Of a DNA stretch of 64,000 bases, positions 1,342 through 50,227 are shown piece after piece; within the stretch, counting starts at the first letter, position 1; every line of letters begins with the position of its first letter. The notes below the pieces were generated by a model that worked only from the letters and a program-made list of their open reading frames with translations, did no database searches and was not told the DNA's origin. A program made the position numbers and the translations under genes. Source of the DNA: Sandaracinaceae bacterium (GTDB lineage: Bacteria > Myxococcota_A > Polyangia > Polyangiales > Sandaracinaceae). The stretch covers positions 1 to 64,000 of the forward strand of contig JAHBWG010000004.1 of NCBI GenBank assembly GCA_019637095.1. The letters run 5' to 3'.

Positions 1342-2751
1342 ATGACGCGACCCCGTTCCTTCGCCGCGTGCTCCGTGCTCGCCCTGTGGCTCGCGGCCTG
1401 CGGGTCGGAGACCGATTTCGACGCGGGCGGCGCGGACGGCGGCGCACGAGACGCGGGCGGCGCGAGCGACGCCGGGGCGAGCGACGCCGGGGCGAGCGAC
1501 GCCGGGGCGAGCGACGCCGGGGCGAGCGACGCGGGCGCGCTCGACGCGGGCGCGATGGACGCCGGCGAGCTCGACGCGGGCGCGATGGACGCCGGCGAGC
1601 TCGACGCCGGCGAGCTCGACGCGGGCGCGATGGACGCCGGCGAGCTCGACGCGGGGCCGCCGCCGCCCAGGGTCTGCGCGGGGGACGGCGACTGCACGAC
1701 GGGCCTCTGCCTCGCGGGCGTCTGTCGCGTGGTCACCGAGACGACGCACTCCGAGGAGGGCCTCGGGTCGATCCGCCGCATGGTCGCGGGGACGGACCGC
1801 GACGGGACGCTCCGCCTGCTCACCGACACGGGCACGCGCACCTACGACGTCGTCGGCGCGCCGGGCGCGTTCGGCGTGACCGCGGGCGGCGCCGCGACGG
1901 ACGTGTACCCGCTGCGCGGCGGCGGCCGGCAGGGCACGGCGAGCTCGCACGCCTCGTACACCGCGCCCGCGTACCGGTGGGTCGTCGTCGACCAGCGCGC
2001 GACCGTCAACGAGGATCGCGTGATCGAGTACCAGACGACCGCGCACGCGCCCGACGGCACGCTCTACGTGCTCACCCTGCCGCGCTACCCGCGCGGACCG
2101 AGCGACCTCATCGACGTCTTCCCGCTGCGCGTCTGGTCGCCCGGCCCGAGCGGCTACGAGCGCGAAGACCTCACGCGCACCGTCGGGACGCGCCGCGACT
2201 TCCACTTGCGCGTCGACGCGAGCGGGCAGTTCGAGGTGATGGAGACGGACGCGTTCCGCGTGTTCCGCTGGCACCTCGAGCTCGCCGGCTGGGAGCGCTC
2301 GATCGAGCACACGTTCGAGCCCGTCGCCACGCGCGACGGTCCCTCGCGCTGGGTGAACGACGCGGCCGGCCACACGCACCTCGTGCGCGTCCTGCCGACC
2401 GGCGCCGCCACCGACGCGCTGACCTACGTCGAGCTCGACGACACCGGCGTCGTGCGCTCGCGGCGGCTCACGTTCGGCGACGGGCACGTCGTGTCGAGCC
2501 AGGTCGGCTTCGACGACGACGGCCACGTCTACTTCCTCAGCGTCGGCACGGTCACCTCGCCCAACCGCCGCCCGTACTACTTGCACCGCGTGCGCGCGGA
2601 GGGCGGCGACGACCGCACGCTCCTGGGCACCCTGCGGACCGACTTCGGCGAGGCGCTCGCGCTGGCCGTGCGCCCCGACGGCGACGTCTTCGTGTTCGTG
2701 TTCTCGCCGACGCGCGACATGGTGGTCCGCGCGCTGGCGATCGGGCGCTGA
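1342..2751 (+). CDS. DAG-repeat lipoprotein, unknown C-terminal domain
   Basis: 469 aa. The N-terminus is a lipoprotein signal peptide with lipobox LAAC (Cys20). Residues 41-105 are thirteen pentapeptides of the form (A/E)-(S/L/M)-D-A-G, a disordered linker type common in myxobacterial lipoproteins. A small Cys-rich patch (CAGDGDCTTGLCLAGVC) follows at about 111-127. The remaining ~340 residues have repeated beta-strand-like blocks with WRV/YEL patterns and may form a propeller or jelly-roll fold, but I recognise no family. Probably anchored in the outer membrane and surface exposed. It stands alone on its strand, divergent from the papain-like protease. Confidence 0.8.
   Translation: MTRPRSFAACSVLALWLAACGSETDFDAGGADGGARDAGGASDAGASDAGASDAGASDAGASDAGALDAGAMDAGELDAGAMDAGELDAGELDAGAMDAGELDAGPPPPRVCAGDGDCTTGLCLAGVCRVVTETTHSEEGLGSIRRMVAGTDRDGTLRLLTDTGTRTYDVVGAPGAFGVTAGGAATDVYPLRGGGRQGTASSHASYTAPAYRWVVVDQRATVNEDRVIEYQTTAHAPDGTLYVLTLPRYPRGPSDLIDVFPLRVWSPGPSGYEREDLTRTVGTRRDFHLRVDASGQFEVMETDAFRVFRWHLELAGWERSIEHTFEPVATRDGPSRWVNDAAGHTHLVRVLPTGAATDALTYVELDDTGVVRSRRLTFGDGHVVSSQVGFDDDGHVYFLSVGTVTSPNRRPYYLHRVRAEGGDDRTLLGTLRTDFGEALALAVRPDGDVFVFVFSPTRDMVVRALAIGR
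1462..1656 (+). repeat. 15-bp coding minisatellite (13 units)
   Basis: Thirteen tandem 15-bp units. The first five are near-identical GCGAGCGACGCCGGG and the later ones diverge to GCGCTCGACGCGGGC and GCGATGGACGCCGGC types. Each encodes one x-x-D-A-G pentapeptide. The near-identity of the first five suggests recent expansion by slippage, so copy number could vary between strains. Confidence 0.9.
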
Positions 2752-30427: not shown

Positions 30428-31687
30428 ATGGCGGACGAAGCGAGCGCGGGCGACGACATCGCCCGCCTGATCTACGACTGGAACTCGAAGCGCTACCGCG
30501 GCCGGGTGATCCTCAACCGCGACTTCGAGCTGCACGACGAGACGCTGCGCGACGGGATCCAGAACCCGTCGGTCGTCGACCCGGACATCGGCGACAAGCT
30601 CGAGATCCTGCACATGCTGAACGACATCGGCGTGGACACCGTCGACGTCGGGCTGCCGGGCGCGGGGCCGCGCGCGTACGAGGACGTGCTCCGGCTGTGT
30701 CGCGAGATCGTCGATCAGAAGCTCGCGATCCGGCCGACCTGCGCCGGCCGCACCCTCGTCGCGGACATCGCGCCGATGGCGCAGGTCAGCCAGCGCGCCG
30801 GGATCTCCATCGAGGTCATGACCTTCATCGGCTCCTCGCCGATCCGCGCGCTCGCGGAGGACTGGTCGGTCGAGACGATCCGCACCCGCTCGGTCGAGGC
30901 GATCGCGTTCGCGGTGAAGGAAGGGCTGCCCGTCAACTACGTCACCGAGGACACGACGCGCGCGCGGCCGGACGTCCTCTGGGAGCTGTTCCGCGCGGTG
31001 ATCGAGCACGGCGCGAGCCGCCTCACGCTGTGCGACACGGTCGGGCACGTCACCCCCGACGGCGTGCGCAACCTCGTTCAGTTCACGCGCAACACGGTCG
31101 AGGCGACCGGCTGCGACGTGGGGATCGACTGGCACGGCCACAACGACCGCGGGCTCGCGGTGGTCAACGCGATCTGGGCGCTCGAGTACGGCGCCGACCG
31201 CGCGCACGGCACGATCCTCGGGATCGGCGAGCGGGTCGGCAACGCGTCGCTCGATCAGATCCTCGTGAACCTGAAGCTCCTCGGCGAGCTCGGCGACCGC
31301 AACCTCGAGAAGCTCGCCCCGCTCTGCAAGAAGGTCTCCGAGGCGACGCAGTTCCCCATCCCCATCAACTACCCGGTCTTCGGGGAGGACGCGTTCCGCA
31401 CCGGGACGGGCGTGCACGCCGCGGCGATCATCAAGGCGATGGAGAAGGGCGACGCCGCCCTCGCCGACCGCGTCTACTCGGGCGTCCCCGCCGGCGAGTT
31501 CGGGCGCGAGCAGGAGATCTGCATCGGCCCCATGTCAGGCATCAGCAACGTCCGCTACTGGTGCCGCAAGCGCGACATCGAGCCGACCGAAGAGCTCGCC
31601 CGCGCGATCCTCGCCCGCGCCAAGCAGTCCAAGCGCCTCATGACCGACGACGAGGTCATGGAGGTCGTACGCGCCGCGCGCAGTTAG
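30428..31687 (+). CDS. LeuA-family acyltransferase/lyase (HMGL-like)
   Basis: 419 aa. The TIM barrel of the HMGL-like superfamily has HDETLRDGIQNP (substrate Arg and metal Asp), DIGVDTVDVGLPGAG, TLCDTVGHVTP and the metal-binding DWHGHNDRG, with GIGERVGNA as the second signature. It lacks the ~120-residue LeuA allosteric domain, so it is closer to homocitrate synthase-like or short IPMS enzymes. Substrate pair unknown. The place after hydratase and thiolase suggests an acetyl-CoA-dependent step in acid or acyl-CoA metabolism. Confidence 0.82.
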   Translation: MADEASAGDDIARLIYDWNSKRYRGRVILNRDFELHDETLRDGIQNPSVVDPDIGDKLEILHMLNDIGVDTVDVGLPGAGPRAYEDVLRLCREIVDQKLAIRPTCAGRTLVADIAPMAQVSQRAGISIEVMTFIGSSPIRALAEDWSVETIRTRSVEAIAFAVKEGLPVNYVTEDTTRARPDVLWELFRAVIEHGASRLTLCDTVGHVTPDGVRNLVQFTRNTVEATGCDVGIDWHGHNDRGLAVVNAIWALEYGADRAHGTILGIGERVGNASLDQILVNLKLLGELGDRNLEKLAPLCKKVSEATQFPIPINYPVFGEDAFRTGTGVHAAAIIKAMEKGDAALADRVYSGVPAGEFGREQEICIGPMSGISNVRYWCRKRDIEPTEELARAILARAKQSKRLMTDDEVMEVVRAARS

Positions 31688-31781
31688 CCGGGCTTTCGGA
31701 TCTGCAAGCGGACCTTTCAGGTTCGACAGCCGGCGGAGCCTTTCGAGCGCCAAACCCCTGCGAATCTACGCGCCACACACC

Positions 31782-31938
31782 TGGCACGCCCATCGCAGAA
31801 GGGGAACTTCGACATGACAACATAGCGGCGTATCAGCCCCCCCGATCGCCGCGTCGTCATGTCAATCTTCGGCGGCCCCTTCGCGACCCCCCCCCCAACG
31901 CGAAGTGGGCCGCCATTTTATTCCGTCCGCGCGTCGCG
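31782..31938 (+). repeat. C-loop repeat, copy 1
   Basis: Opens with TGGCACGCCCATCGCA (31782-31797). H1: outer stem GACATGAC/GTCATGTC (31811-31818, 31856-31863), internal loop, inner stem GCGGCG/CGCCGC (31825-31830, 31847-31852), loop with C7. H2: GGCGGCCCCTTCGCG (31871-31885) against 31899-31914 with one bulged T, loop A-C10-AA. Closes with an ATTTTATT tract and TTCCGTCCGCGCG. The T-rich tract right after H2 would also allow intrinsic termination. Confidence 0.8.
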
Positions 31939-32044
31939 CCGCGACGGCGTCCCCGCTTTCGCGAGTGAAAGGCCGGCTTTCACCGATGGGGGCTGGCGAG
32001 GGTGATCGCGCGCGAGACCACCCGACAAACCGCGGCGAGCGAGT

Positions 32045-32204
32045 TGGCACGCCGATCGCAAGGTACGCTGCCGAGTACGGAGCGACGAAACGCCGGCGGA
32101 TTCCCCCCCAACGCTGGCGCGTCGCACCGAACATCCGGCGGCCCGCTTCGTGAACCCCCCCCAACACGACGCGGGCCGCCGCCCCTTTCCGTCGCGGCGC
32201 GTTG
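32045..32204 (+). repeat. C-loop repeat, copy 2
   Basis: Opens with TGGCACGCCGATCGCA (32045-32060), one mismatch from copy 1. H3: GCGACG (32082-32087), AAA bulge, CGCCGGCG (32091-32098), loop GATT-C7-AA, then CGCTGGCG and CGTCGC (32112-32125), with one G-T pair. H4: GGCGGCCCGCTTCGTG (32137-32152) against 32165-32180 with one mismatch, loop AA-C8-AA. Closes with TTTCCGTCGCGGCGCG, matching the end of copy 1. Confidence 0.8.
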
Positions 32205-32240: not shown

Positions 32241-33341
32241 ATGCTCCGCCTGCTCGCGATCGTGGCGCTCCTCGCCGGCTGCGGCGCGCGGACCGAGGCG
32301 GTCGAAGAGCCCGCGCCTCCGCCGGTCCACGTCGACACCGCCGTCGTGACGTCGCGCGTCCCGCTCGCGTCGGGCACGGCGGAGCTCGAGGCGCTCCGCC
32401 GCGCGACCCTCTCGGTCGAGGCCCCGGGCCGGGTCGTCGCGCTCGACTTCGAGGCCGGCCAGCGCGTGAGCGCGGGCGACGTGCTCCTGCGGCTCGACGT
32501 CGGCCGCACCGCCGTCGCGGCGTCGGCGGCGACCGCGGCGGTCGCGCAGGCCGAGGCCGCGGTCGCGCAGGCGGAGCGGGAGCGCGCGATCGCCGCGCAG
32601 CTCGCCGCGAGCGGCAGCGGGTCGCGCCGTAACCTCGAACAGGCCGATGACGCGGCGGCGATCGCGAGCGCCGCGCTCGCGACGGCGCGCGCGCAGTCGC
32701 AGGTCGCGCGGCGCGGCCTCACCGAGGCGGTCCTGCGCGCGCCGTTCGGCGGCACGATCATCGAGCGCCGCGTCGAGATGGGCGAGTACCTCGGCCCCGG
32801 CTCGCCCGTCGCCGTCCTCATGGACACGAGCGCGCTGCGCGCCCGGGTGCTGCTCGACCCGCGCGAGGCGCTCGACGTGCGCCCGGGCGCGGCGGTGAGC
32901 GCGCGCGTGTTCGCGCGACCCGACGAGCAGTTCGACGGTGAGGTGCTCCGGGTCGGCGAGGCGGTCGACTCGGCCACGCGGCGGCTCCCCGTCGAGGTCG
33001 AGGTCCGCGATCCGTCGCGGCGCGTGCGGCCGGGGCTCGTCGCGCGCTTCGAGGTGGTCGTCGGCGAGCCGGCGTCCGTGCTCACCATCGACGCCGACTG
33101 CCCCTTCGTGCGCTTCGAGCTCACGCAGGTCTACGTCGTCGACGCGGAGGGCGTCGCGCACCGGCGCGCGGTCACGCTCGGCGCGGTCCGCGACGGACGC
33201 GTCGCCGTGCTCACGGGCCTGAACGCCGGAGACCGCGTCGTCCGCGAGGGGCAAGACCGCGTGCTCGATGGACAGCCCGTGCGGGTCGTCGAGCCCGACC
33301 GCGGCGAGGGCGGCGCGCGCGCCGACCGGATCGATGGCTGA
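32241..33341 (+). CDS. RND efflux periplasmic adaptor (membrane fusion protein) lipoprotein
   Basis: 366 aa. Lipoprotein signal MLRLLAIVALLAGC (Cys14). The adaptor layout is clear: barrel strand VEAPGRVVALDFEAGQRVSA (lipoyl half 1), Ala/Glu/Gln-rich helical hairpin about residues 90-155, lipoyl half 2 VLRAPFGGTIIERRVEMGEY, beta-barrel and membrane-proximal domain (VLTGLNAGDRVVREGQDRVL). Bridges the inner-membrane pump to a TolC-like channel. The 3' end overlaps the permease start. Lies 36 bp after the C-loop hairpin array. Confidence 0.9.
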   Translation: MLRLLAIVALLAGCGARTEAVEEPAPPPVHVDTAVVTSRVPLASGTAELEALRRATLSVEAPGRVVALDFEAGQRVSAGDVLLRLDVGRTAVAASAATAAVAQAEAAVAQAERERAIAAQLAASGSGSRRNLEQADDAAAIASAALATARAQSQVARRGLTEAVLRAPFGGTIIERRVEMGEYLGPGSPVAVLMDTSALRARVLLDPREALDVRPGAAVSARVFARPDEQFDGEVLRVGEAVDSATRRLPVEVEVRDPSRRVRPGLVARFEVVVGEPASVLTIDADCPFVRFELTQVYVVDAEGVAHRRAVTLGAVRDGRVAVLTGLNAGDRVVREGQDRVLDGQPVRVVEPDRGEGGARADRIDG

Positions 33342-36300
33342 GCCGGGCGCGGGCGAGGGCGCGTCCATCGCGCGCTTCAGCGCGCGCCAGCCCGTCCTCG
33401 TGAACCTGATCGCCCTCGCGATGGTGGTGACCGGAGGCTACCTGCTGTCGGGGATGACTCGGGAGGTCTATCCGAGCGTGCCCGTCGGCGGCGCGAGCAT
33501 CGTCACGGTCGTCCCGGGCGCCTCGGCCGAGGAGGTCGAGCAGCTCGTCACCGCCCCCCTCGAGGACGAGCTGTCGGACATCGAGGACGTCGACGTCATC
33601 TCCTCGACTTCGAGCGACGGGCTCAGCTTCATCTGGGTCGAGATGGACGCGTCCGTCGAGGACACCGGCCGCAAGGTCCTCGAGATCACCAACGAGGTGA
33701 ACCGGGTCACGAACCTGCCGGCGGGCGCGCAGGCGCCCGTCGTACGCGAGGCCGCGGTGCGGATCCCGACGATCGCGGTGACGGTCGGCGGTGACGCGCC
33801 GGAGGCGGTGCTGCGCGCGGTGGCGCGCGAGATGGAAGAGCGGCTCGGCCGCATCGACGGCGTCGGGCAGGTCACGACGACGGGGATCCGCGATCGCGAG
33901 CTGCACGTCGACGTCGACCCGGATCGGCTCGAGGCGTACGGCGTCCCGCTCGCCGCGGTCGCCGGCGCGCTCTCGGGCCGCGGGAGCAACATCCCCGCCG
34001 GGCACATGGACTCCGGCCGTCACAGCCGGATGGTCCGCGGGATGGCGCGGACGGTGACCGCGGCGCAGGTCGAGCGCGTCGTCGTGCGCCCGAGCCCGCA
34101 GGGCGGCTCGCTCACGGTGGGCGACCTCGCGCGGGTCGAGGCGGGCTACGAGCGCGCGCTCACGGTGGCGCGCGTCGACGGCGAGCCGGGCATCGTCTTC
34201 ATCCTGCTCAAGGACGATCGAGCGGACGCGCTCCGCATCAGCGAGGACGCGCGGGCCGTCGTGCGCGCGATGCAGGCGGAGGCGCCGCCGGGCGTGCGCA
34301 TCGGCGTGTTCGGCGACACCGCGTTCTGGGTGCGCGCGAACCTCGACACGCTCTACGCGAACGCGGCGATGGGCCTCGGGCTCGTGCTCGCGATCCTCTG
34401 GCTGTTCGTCGGGTTCCGCAACGGGATGATGGCCGCGCTCGGCATCCCGGTCGCGATCGCGGGCGGCGTCGTCGTGATGCACCTGCTCGGCATCACGATC
34501 AACCTCATCTCGCTGATGGCGCTGATCCTGTCGCTCGGGATCATCGTCGACGACGCGATCATCATCATCGAGAACGTCCACCGTCACGTCGAGGAGGGCA
34601 CGCCGCGCGTGCGCGCCGCGATCGTCGGGACGATGGAGGTGTTCTGGCCCGTCGTGTCGTCGACGGCGACGACGTGCTCGGCGTTCCTGCCGCTGCTCCT
34701 GATGACGGGCGTGCTCGGCGAGTTCTTCGCGATCATCCCGAAGGTGATCGCGGCGGCGCTGATCGCGTCGCTCATCGAGGCGTTCCTGATCCTGCCGAGC
34801 CACCTCGCGGAGATGGGCGGCGAGGCGACCAAGAGCGAGCGCGGCTGGCTCGCACGCAAGGTCGAGCGCGTGGAGGAGCTCTACGCGCGCGTGCTCCGCG
34901 TCGCGCTCCGCTGGCGGCTGACCGTCGTCCTCGTCACGTACGCGATCTGCATCGGGTTGATCACGACGGCGGCGATGGTCAAGAGCGTCACGCTGTTCAC
35001 CGAGGGGGACGTCGAGGCCTTCGACGTGCGCGTGCGGATGCCGACCGACGCGGCGCCCGAGGAGACCGACCGCGTGCTCGCCGAGATCGAGCGGCGAATC
35101 CTCGCGCTCGAGGAGCGCGACGTGGAGGCCGTGATCTCGTCGCGCGGCTACTCGCGGACGCGGACGTGGAACGTGACCGGCGACCACGTGGGGATGGTCA
35201 ACGTGTACATGCGCCGCCGCGATCAGCGCGCGCGCCAGGACGCGGGCACCCGGCTGATGGAGCGCGTGGCGCACCTCTTCGACGACCTGGTCGGGCCGGC
35301 GAGCGTCGAGGTCGTGAAGTTCGAGGACGGCCCCCCGCGCGGCGCGCCGGTCGCGGTGCGGATCAGCGGCGACGACCTCGAGCAGCTCGCCGACCTGAGC
35401 GAGCGCGTGCAAGCCGAGCTGCGCGCGGTACGCGGCGTGCGCGACGTGAGCGACGACCACGAGCTCGGCAAGCAGGAGCTGCGCGTCCACGTCGACGAGG
35501 AGCGGGCCGCGCTCCACGGGCTGACGAGCGACGCGATCCATCGCTGGCTCGCGCTGGCGTTCGGCGCGAGCCCGGTCGCGACCGCGCGCGAGGGCGGCGA
35601 GGAGGTCGACCTCGTCGTGCGGCTGCGCGAGGACGCGCGGCAGAACCCGGAGCGGCTCGCGGAGCTGACGCTCGTGACGCCGGCGGGGGCGAGCGTCGCG
35701 CTCGGCGAGGTCGCGACGATCGAGCGCGGGCGCGGGATCTCCAGCATCCGGCGGCGCGACCGGCGGCGCGTGATCACGGTGACCGCCGAGCTCGTCGAGG
35801 GCTCGGGGGTCCAGAGCGCCGACGCGAACGCGGCGCTCGCGGCGCGCATCGCGCCCTTGATCGCGGCGAGCTCGAACGTGCGCTTCGAGCTCGGCGGCGA
35901 GTTCGAGGAGACGCAGGAGTCGCTCGACTCGCTCTTCCTCGCGTTCCTCGTCGCGGCGCTCCTGATCTACACCATCCTCGCGACGCAGTTCCGCTCGTTC
36001 CTGCAGCCGCTCGTGGTGATGACGGCCATCCCGCTCAGCCTGATCGGCGTGAGCATCGGGTTCTTGGCCAGCGGGGAGGCGGTGGGGCTGATCGGGCTGA
36101 TCGGCGTCGTGGGCCTCGCCGGGATCGTGGTGAACGACTCGCTCGTGCTCGTGGACTTCATCAACACGCGGCGCGCGCGCGGGGCGCCGCTCGACGAGGC
36201 GATCGTCGAGGCGGGGCGGCTGCGGCTGCGGCCGATCTTCCTGACGAGCATCACGACGATCGCCGGGCTCGGCCCGCTCGCGCTCGGGATCGGTGGGCGC

Positions 36301-36501
36301 TCCGAGCTACTCGCGCCGATGGCGACCGCGATCGCGTGGGGCCTGACGTTCTCGACGGTGCTCATCCTCGTGATCGTGCCGTGCCTCTACCGCAGCGTGG
36401 ACTCGATGGCGCAGGGCGCGCGGCGCCTGCTCGGGCCCCTGCTGCGGCTCGCCGCGGGCACGCGCGCCGGCCCCGAGGGAGATCCGAGCGCGGCCGAGTA
36501 G
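33334..36501 (+). CDS. RND efflux permease
   Basis: 1055 aa, the size of AcrB/MexB/HAE1-type pumps. Starts with a cytoplasmic segment and TM1 (LVNLIALAMVVTGGYLL), then a large periplasmic loop (EVYPSVPVGGASIVTVVPGA, SAEEVEQLVTAPLE), TM2-6 with LGIIVDDAIIIIENVHRHVEEG, a second loop and TM7-12 (LIGVVGLAGIVVNDSLVLVDFIN). The charged Asp pair of the proton relay is seen in TM4 (IVDDAI). Works with the adaptor encoded just upstream. No outer-membrane channel is encoded nearby. Substrate unknown. Confidence 0.93.
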   Translation: MAEPGAGEGASIARFSARQPVLVNLIALAMVVTGGYLLSGMTREVYPSVPVGGASIVTVVPGASAEEVEQLVTAPLEDELSDIEDVDVISSTSSDGLSFIWVEMDASVEDTGRKVLEITNEVNRVTNLPAGAQAPVVREAAVRIPTIAVTVGGDAPEAVLRAVAREMEERLGRIDGVGQVTTTGIRDRELHVDVDPDRLEAYGVPLAAVAGALSGRGSNIPAGHMDSGRHSRMVRGMARTVTAAQVERVVVRPSPQGGSLTVGDLARVEAGYERALTVARVDGEPGIVFILLKDDRADALRISEDARAVVRAMQAEAPPGVRIGVFGDTAFWVRANLDTLYANAAMGLGLVLAILWLFVGFRNGMMAALGIPVAIAGGVVVMHLLGITINLISLMALILSLGIIVDDAIIIIENVHRHVEEGTPRVRAAIVGTMEVFWPVVSSTATTCSAFLPLLLMTGVLGEFFAIIPKVIAAALIASLIEAFLILPSHLAEMGGEATKSERGWLARKVERVEELYARVLRVALRWRLTVVLVTYAICIGLITTAAMVKSVTLFTEGDVEAFDVRVRMPTDAAPEETDRVLAEIERRILALEERDVEAVISSRGYSRTRTWNVTGDHVGMVNVYMRRRDQRARQDAGTRLMERVAHLFDDLVGPASVEVVKFEDGPPRGAPVAVRISGDDLEQLADLSERVQAELRAVRGVRDVSDDHELGKQELRVHVDEERAALHGLTSDAIHRWLALAFGASPVATAREGGEEVDLVVRLREDARQNPERLAELTLVTPAGASVALGEVATIERGRGISSIRRRDRRRVITVTAELVEGSGVQSADANAALAARIAPLIAASSNVRFELGGEFEETQESLDSLFLAFLVAALLIYTILATQFRSFLQPLVVMTAIPLSLIGVSIGFLASGEAVGLIGLIGVVGLAGIVVNDSLVLVDFINTRRARGAPLDEAIVEAGRLRLRPIFLTSITTIAGLGPLALGIGGRSELLAPMATAIAWGLTFSTVLILVIVPCLYRSVDSMAQGARRLLGPLLRLAAGTRAGPEGDPSAAE

Positions 36502-48877: not shown

Positions 48878-50227
<1,350 letters not shown>

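Follow-up and report, generated by a model that had tools for sequence, protein, structure and literature searches.

Two tandem predicted small RNA genes with poly-C loops and sigma-54-type promoters in a Sandaracinaceae genome

Upstream of the membrane-fusion and RND transporter genes of a Sandaracinaceae bacterium lie two copies of an element composed of hairpins with poly-C loops, raising the question of whether the element is a leader of the efflux operon or a pair of genes in their own right. A sequence-only reading of the window, the 64-kb stretch of DNA analyzed here, had reported four such hairpins, and direct reading together with folding recovered them where it had placed them, with loops of C7 (31837-31843) and C10 (31887-31896) in the first copy and C7 (32103-32109) and C8 (32155-32162) in the second. 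AA directly follows the C10 loop and both loops of the second copy, that is, three loops out of four, as had been described. The + strand of the window holds five C-runs of seven or more, four of which are these loops; in order, the single hairpins fold with z of -6.2, -6.7, -2.8, and -7.3, at a GC content of 74%, which lets hairpins form easily. The 16-mer TGGCACGCC(C/G)ATCGCA that opens both copies and the H2/H4 stem, both said to be shared, correspond to repeat families D4 and D1 within the window, and the exchange of the pair C31884-G31900 in copy 1 for T32151-A32166 in copy 2, interpreted earlier as compensatory, is correct on direct reading. The features of the locus are as follows.

30428..31687, + strand: HMGL-like (PF00682) gene, neighbor, given for context
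31694..31707, + strand: first upstream site of copy 1, TTTCGGATCTGCAA, putative target of an enhancer-binding protein (family motif, 20.5 bits)
31715..31728, + strand: second upstream site of copy 1, TTTCAGGTTCGACA, 21 bp downstream of the first (13.3 bits)
31782..31797, + strand: predicted sigma-54 promoter of copy 1, TGGCACG-N4-TCGCA, -24 GG at 31783-31784 and -12 GC at 31795-31796 (direct reading; conservation)
31808..31921, + strand: predicted small RNA 1, start inferred ~12 nt past the -12 GC (covariance model 109 bits, rough E 2e-26; fold z -10.5)
31811..31863, + strand: hairpin A of RNA 1, with C7 in its loop (fold; outer stem covaries)
31871..31914, + strand: hairpin B of RNA 1, with C10 in its loop and ATTTTATT behind it, terminator-like (fold; double changes in 11 of 14 pairs)
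31957..31970, + strand: upstream site of copy 2, TTTCGCGAGTGAAA (13.4 bits)
31978-31991, + strand: second upstream site of copy 2, poor (1.8 bits)
32045..32060, + strand: predicted sigma-54 promoter of copy 2, TGGCACG-N4-TCGCA (direct reading; conservation)
32071..32192, + strand: predicted small RNA 2, start inferred, tail CCCCTTTCC poor in T (covariance model 63 bits, rough E 2e-14; fold z -6.8)
32078..32129, + strand: hairpin A of RNA 2, loop with C7 (fold)
32136..32181, + strand: hairpin B of RNA 2, loop with C8 (fold; repeat comparison)
32241..33341, + strand: HlyD/CusB-type membrane-fusion gene, neighbor, given for context
33268-36501: RND transporter gene, after the membrane-fusion gene

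Both copies open with TGGCACG-N4-TCGCA, in which GG and GC stand ten bases apart. By the established consensus, we take this arrangement to be a sigma-54 (-24 GG/-12 GC) promoter; on that assignment, the 16-mer at the start of each copy is a promoter that the earlier reading overlooked. It is kept before every family member found by pattern search, the pattern itself consisting of the promoter and two C-runs, and the genome contains the gene for RpoN. The expected transcription starts (31808 for copy 1 and 32071 for copy 2) fall just before the first hairpin, which would give an RNA of ~112-120 nt laid out as hairpin A, a short linker, and hairpin B, with hairpin B of copy 1 appearing to have the form of an intrinsic terminator. 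A scan of the element for sigma-70 promoters and simple terminators returned nothing, since the promoter is of the sigma-54 type and the C-loops exceed the loop length that the scan allows. The presence of a sigma-54 promoter and a terminator-like end in each unit argues that each copy is a stand-alone gene and not a leader of the efflux operon. In copy 2, the second upstream site is weak and the tail is poor in T, compared with copy 1, suggesting that this copy may be poorly expressed or decaying.

The sequence-only reading had taken the C-G to T-A exchange as a sign of structural selection, and covariation bears this out. In an alignment of 13 sequences, both partners have changed in 15 of the 22 pairs, with 95.4% of cells paired, a result that none of 500 shuffles equaled. 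When 35 sequences were aligned to the resulting model, an alignment that is fitted to the model and leans towards structure, all 22 pairs were doubly changed and 97.0% were paired, vs. 29-52% for slid partners. Both hairpin stems thus covary strongly. Among the findings that had been named as speaking against the element were a lack of homologues with compensatory changes, and a terminator in H2 with H1, H3, and H4 unconserved; instead, the covariance search found homologues in 49 genomes, with both hairpins covarying. No reading frame is conserved among the members, and a small-ORF explanation was rejected on this ground. Across 1.27 Mb, many loci of which had been fetched by the C-run pattern, 43 strong C-loop hairpins were found, 38 of them with a sigma-54-like element at most 130 nt upstream (background 5.5%); two of the five that lack the element are third hairpins of small RNA (sRNA) members. 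In a less biased set of 764 kb, whose loci (L001, the copy of the element itself, included) came from an unrelated protein query, strong C-loop hairpins occur at the element and its orthologues L002 and L005, with one more at an unrelated place and lacking a T tail.

How far this design extends was examined with two kinds of search. The pattern of promoter plus two C-runs matched in 23 of 183 genomes of Polyangiales, while the reversed control pattern gave 0 matches; nearly all of the matches, when folded, show the same design on differing stem sequences, a few (e.g., L109) being doubtful. A plain MAFFT alignment of 28 divergent members was not structurally sound, and the covariance model R1 was therefore built from 13 closer sequences, with a short calibration that leaves its E-values rough. 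R1 found members in 49 of 177 genomes of Polyangiales, spanning 37 of 79 genera and mostly at unrelated loci. Across the phylum (377 genomes), it matched 21 genomes of Polyangiales, the own genome included, and gave one weak match among the ~306 genomes outside the order; within the own 9.25-Mb draft genome it finds just the two tandem copies. Phylum-level pattern matches outside the order (L113-L133) mostly lack hairpins and are probably chance. At L127 and L128 (~1501-1626, minus strand; G325 and G277, of another family), a sigma-54-like promoter is followed by a different, strongly structured sequence that lacks C-loop pairs of the present type.

Members vary in loop number and length. The C-run ranges from C6 to C11, there are one to three such loops per RNA, and tandem genes occur. 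L205, L208, and L212 have just one C-loop hairpin, with a T-run behind it, L140 and L141 have three C-loops, and the second hairpin of L191 is without a C-run. The short single-C-loop members (these three and L161) come from large-genome families of Polyangiales. L204 holds, besides two other sRNA members, a strong hairpin with a C9 loop and a tail that contains T (5095, minus strand), with no sigma-54-like element detected upstream. In G026, G046, and G047, an sRNA member lies within about 1 kb of a tmRNA gene (1501-1633 and 1733-2097 in L087; ~1607 and 2471-2854 in L090 and L108). Taken on their sequences, the poly-C-loop sRNAs appear to be a real, structurally conserved family that is absent from Rfam 15 and from the papers searched.

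The region upstream of the promoters contains a further shared feature, also passed over by the earlier reading. A 14-bp palindrome, TTKCRGATCYGMAA, often occurs twice, with starts 21-22 bp apart, near positions -88 and -67 relative to the TGG of the promoter. At 10 bits or above, the motif is present in 38 of 44 family members, vs. 4.7% of stretches drawn at random from the same loci, a comparison that alone is not independent, the motif having been fitted on those same members. The independent test is a pair pattern that names neither promoter nor C-run: run on 14 genomes, it gave nine matches, all nine in front of poly-C-loop sRNAs. This confinement suggests that one enhancer-binding protein probably controls the family, and a protein largely dedicated to it is probably the simplest reading of the paired sites. 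No sigma-54 activator motif was found within the flanks around any member, and the lack of a neighboring activator gene weakens the case for sRNA genes. The sole activator motifs detected in the window, GAFTGA and GETGTGKE, lie at 49576-49717 on the minus strand.

We propose that the element consists of two tandem, independently transcribed genes for trans-acting sRNAs whose C-loops most likely pair with G-rich start regions, a reading to which we give a probability of about 0.78. A putative enhancer-binding protein would bind the twin palindromes, which lie 67-88 bp ahead of the -24/-12 promoter, and allow the sigma-54 polymerase to make an RNA of ~112-120 nt, almost wholly occupied by two hairpins, each presenting a C-run in its apical loop; the second hairpin would double as the transcription terminator. 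Folding and alignment place the C-runs in exposed apical loops of the predicted structured RNA in family members as well, and the loops stay poly-C while the stems drift, indicating that the loop is the likely functional part. The stems would then be scaffolds in which pairing is kept and sequence is free, and the C-loops would most likely repress translation by pairing with G-rich stretches in or close to ribosome-binding sites. The sequence-only reading had already offered G-rich Shine-Dalgarno regions as partners; they are retained as candidates, with precedents in sX13 and NfeR1. A screen for G7-N4-10-ATG in 7 genomes and in fetched leaders yielded an excess over the reversed control in some carriers (63 vs. 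17, 52 vs. 15, and 20 vs. 5) that was hardly seen in other carriers (18 vs. 13 in the own genome), and among 38 candidate target reading frames, one pair was common to two genera (L241 and L311). The restriction of the G7 excess to some genomes and the single shared candidate weaken the pairing reading. We read the shared frame, in which G7 stands just before the ATG in two sRNA-carrying genera, as a putative dihydropteroate synthase (folP-like) gene and as a candidate target only.

The main rival to pairing between C-loop and mRNA is a protein sponge, in which the C-loops titrate a C-binding protein and loop number, not antisense pairing, sets activity. CsrB and RsmZ titrate CsrA in this manner, and the sigma-54-driven CrcZ and CrcY titrate Hfq/Crc. 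The gene and promoter evidence fits a sponge equally well, the target evidence for pairing is weak, and near-homopolymeric loops of C6-C11, present one to three per RNA and in tandem genes, are what such an RNA could look like; however, no C-binding protein is known here, and sX13 and NfeR1, the closest C-rich-loop RNAs to have been tested, act by pairing. The single C-to-A change that kills the myxobacterial sRNA Pxr is somewhat easier to reconcile with a seed than with a tolerant protein site, although it is not decisive. On balance, we regard the sponge as unlikely and the pairing sRNA as the preferred reading.

It is far less probable that the element acts in cis on the efflux operon, as a riboswitch or attenuator in its leader. 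The orthologous places in G177 (L002/L152), G178 (L005/L160), and G179 (L155) hold either one copy or two, close to the same HMGL-like and RND genes, and the element lies directly upstream of the membrane-fusion and RND genes in the own genome, G178, and G179; in G177, however, another stretch separates it from the operon, and each unit has the promoter and terminator-like end described above. HMGL-MFP-RND genes are near the unit in 3 of 47 related loci and not nearby in the other 44, so the association is not conserved and the element is better explained as a trans-acting gene. Of the earlier suggestion of a tandem, riboswitch-like RNA in front of the operon, the tandem regulatory RNA stands and the leader role does not. 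Least credible of all are ordinary terminators in tandem or GC-rich repeats with C-tracts that arose by chance: hairpin B is terminator-like in placement and hairpins form readily at this GC content, but promoter, upstream sites, and C-loops recur jointly at near-fixed spacing in many genera, both hairpins covary, and C-loop hairpins are nearly absent elsewhere.

To place the two predicted sRNA genes among known RNAs, we searched Rfam with the window and 20 members; no sRNA family reached its gathering threshold on the element, in agreement with the earlier statement that no known family fits. The best match below threshold was ar7 (RF02342; 35.3 bits vs. 60), with lower scores for atoC RNA (RF01733; 21.1 bits vs. 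50) and sX13 (RF02232; 20.3 bits vs. 50), all three of which show C-rich loops in their Rfam alignments or descriptions. ar7 shares the plan of a pair of C-rich-loop hairpins plus a terminator but comes from Alphaproteobacteria, and atoC RNA resembles the element in a terminator-like hairpin with a C-rich loop, again at a score below threshold. sX13 of Xanthomonas is likewise a structured RNA whose C-rich loops, acting independently of Hfq, repress mRNAs that have G-rich motifs close to the start (PMC3771888), although it has three loops with C4-C5. NfeR1 (alphar14) of rhizobia carries an identical anti-Shine-Dalgarno loop, CCUCCUCCC, on the divergent stems of three hairpins, and its promoter, without a sigma-54 signature, is activated by LsrB (PMC10746234). 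It thus shares with the poly-C-loop sRNAs one loop type on stems of differing sequence and differs in the loop itself, in hairpin number, and in its LsrB-activated promoter; no alphar14/NfeR1 match in Rfam was found on the element. The poly-C-loop sRNAs add a clear case of an sRNA with a conserved loop on freely drifting stems.

Closest in design is Pxr, the development-blocking sRNA of M. xanthus, also present in other Cystobacterineae (PMC5568312, PMC5684412). Pxr is a stem-loop RNA of ~100 nt with a predicted sigma-54 promoter and an upstream enhancer region (PMC5568312), and tandem paralogues with their own sigma-54 promoters occur in Cystobacter (PMC5568312). Its SL1 loop, read from the published primers and probe as TTCCCCCC, contains C6, and function is lost when the fifth base is changed from C to A (PMC5684412); the RNA pieced together from published oligonucleotides folds as expected. 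The poly-C-loop sRNAs have the same order of sigma-54 promoter and stem-loop RNA, a C-run in the loop of the first stem-loop, tandem paralogues, and an upstream enhancer region, so that it is plausible, by analogy, that they work like Pxr. In contrast, Pxr has three stem-loops in most alleles, its terminal (SL3) loop is not C-rich, and pxr adjoins the activator gene pxrR, whereas the flanks of the poly-C members lack an activator motif. The conserved SL1/SL2 sequence of Pxr is absent from the poly-C-loop sRNAs, the best local alignments covering the terminator tail only, and a Pxr query gave no match in 188, 2, and 26 Myxococcota genomes, samples without any known pxr carrier.

Pxr, the myxobacterial sRNA that the searched papers contain, has been described as a recent invention of the Cystobacterineae, its direct targets being unconfirmed. 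Common descent of Pxr and the poly-C-loop sRNAs as one ancient family, with stems diverged beyond recognition, is a tentative alternative on which we would not bet: shared promoter class, enhancer region, tandem paralogues, and an essential C6 loop favor it, but similarity ends at the terminator tail, the SL3 loop is not C-rich, and only pxr sits beside its activator gene. Somewhat more doubtful still is the wider proposal that one dedicated enhancer-binding protein of Polyangiales controls essentially only poly-C sRNAs with one to three loops, with Pxr as a derived member. If it were true, the conserved effector would be the C-loop rather than any longer sequence, whether as a reader of G-runs or as a sponge for a C-binding protein, and it would tie sigma-54 signaling to translation in myxobacteria. 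A Polyangiales family that has the promoter class and the critical kind of loop of Pxr, together with a conserved enhancer of its own, supplies many natural variants and makes the origin and the seed of Pxr testable.
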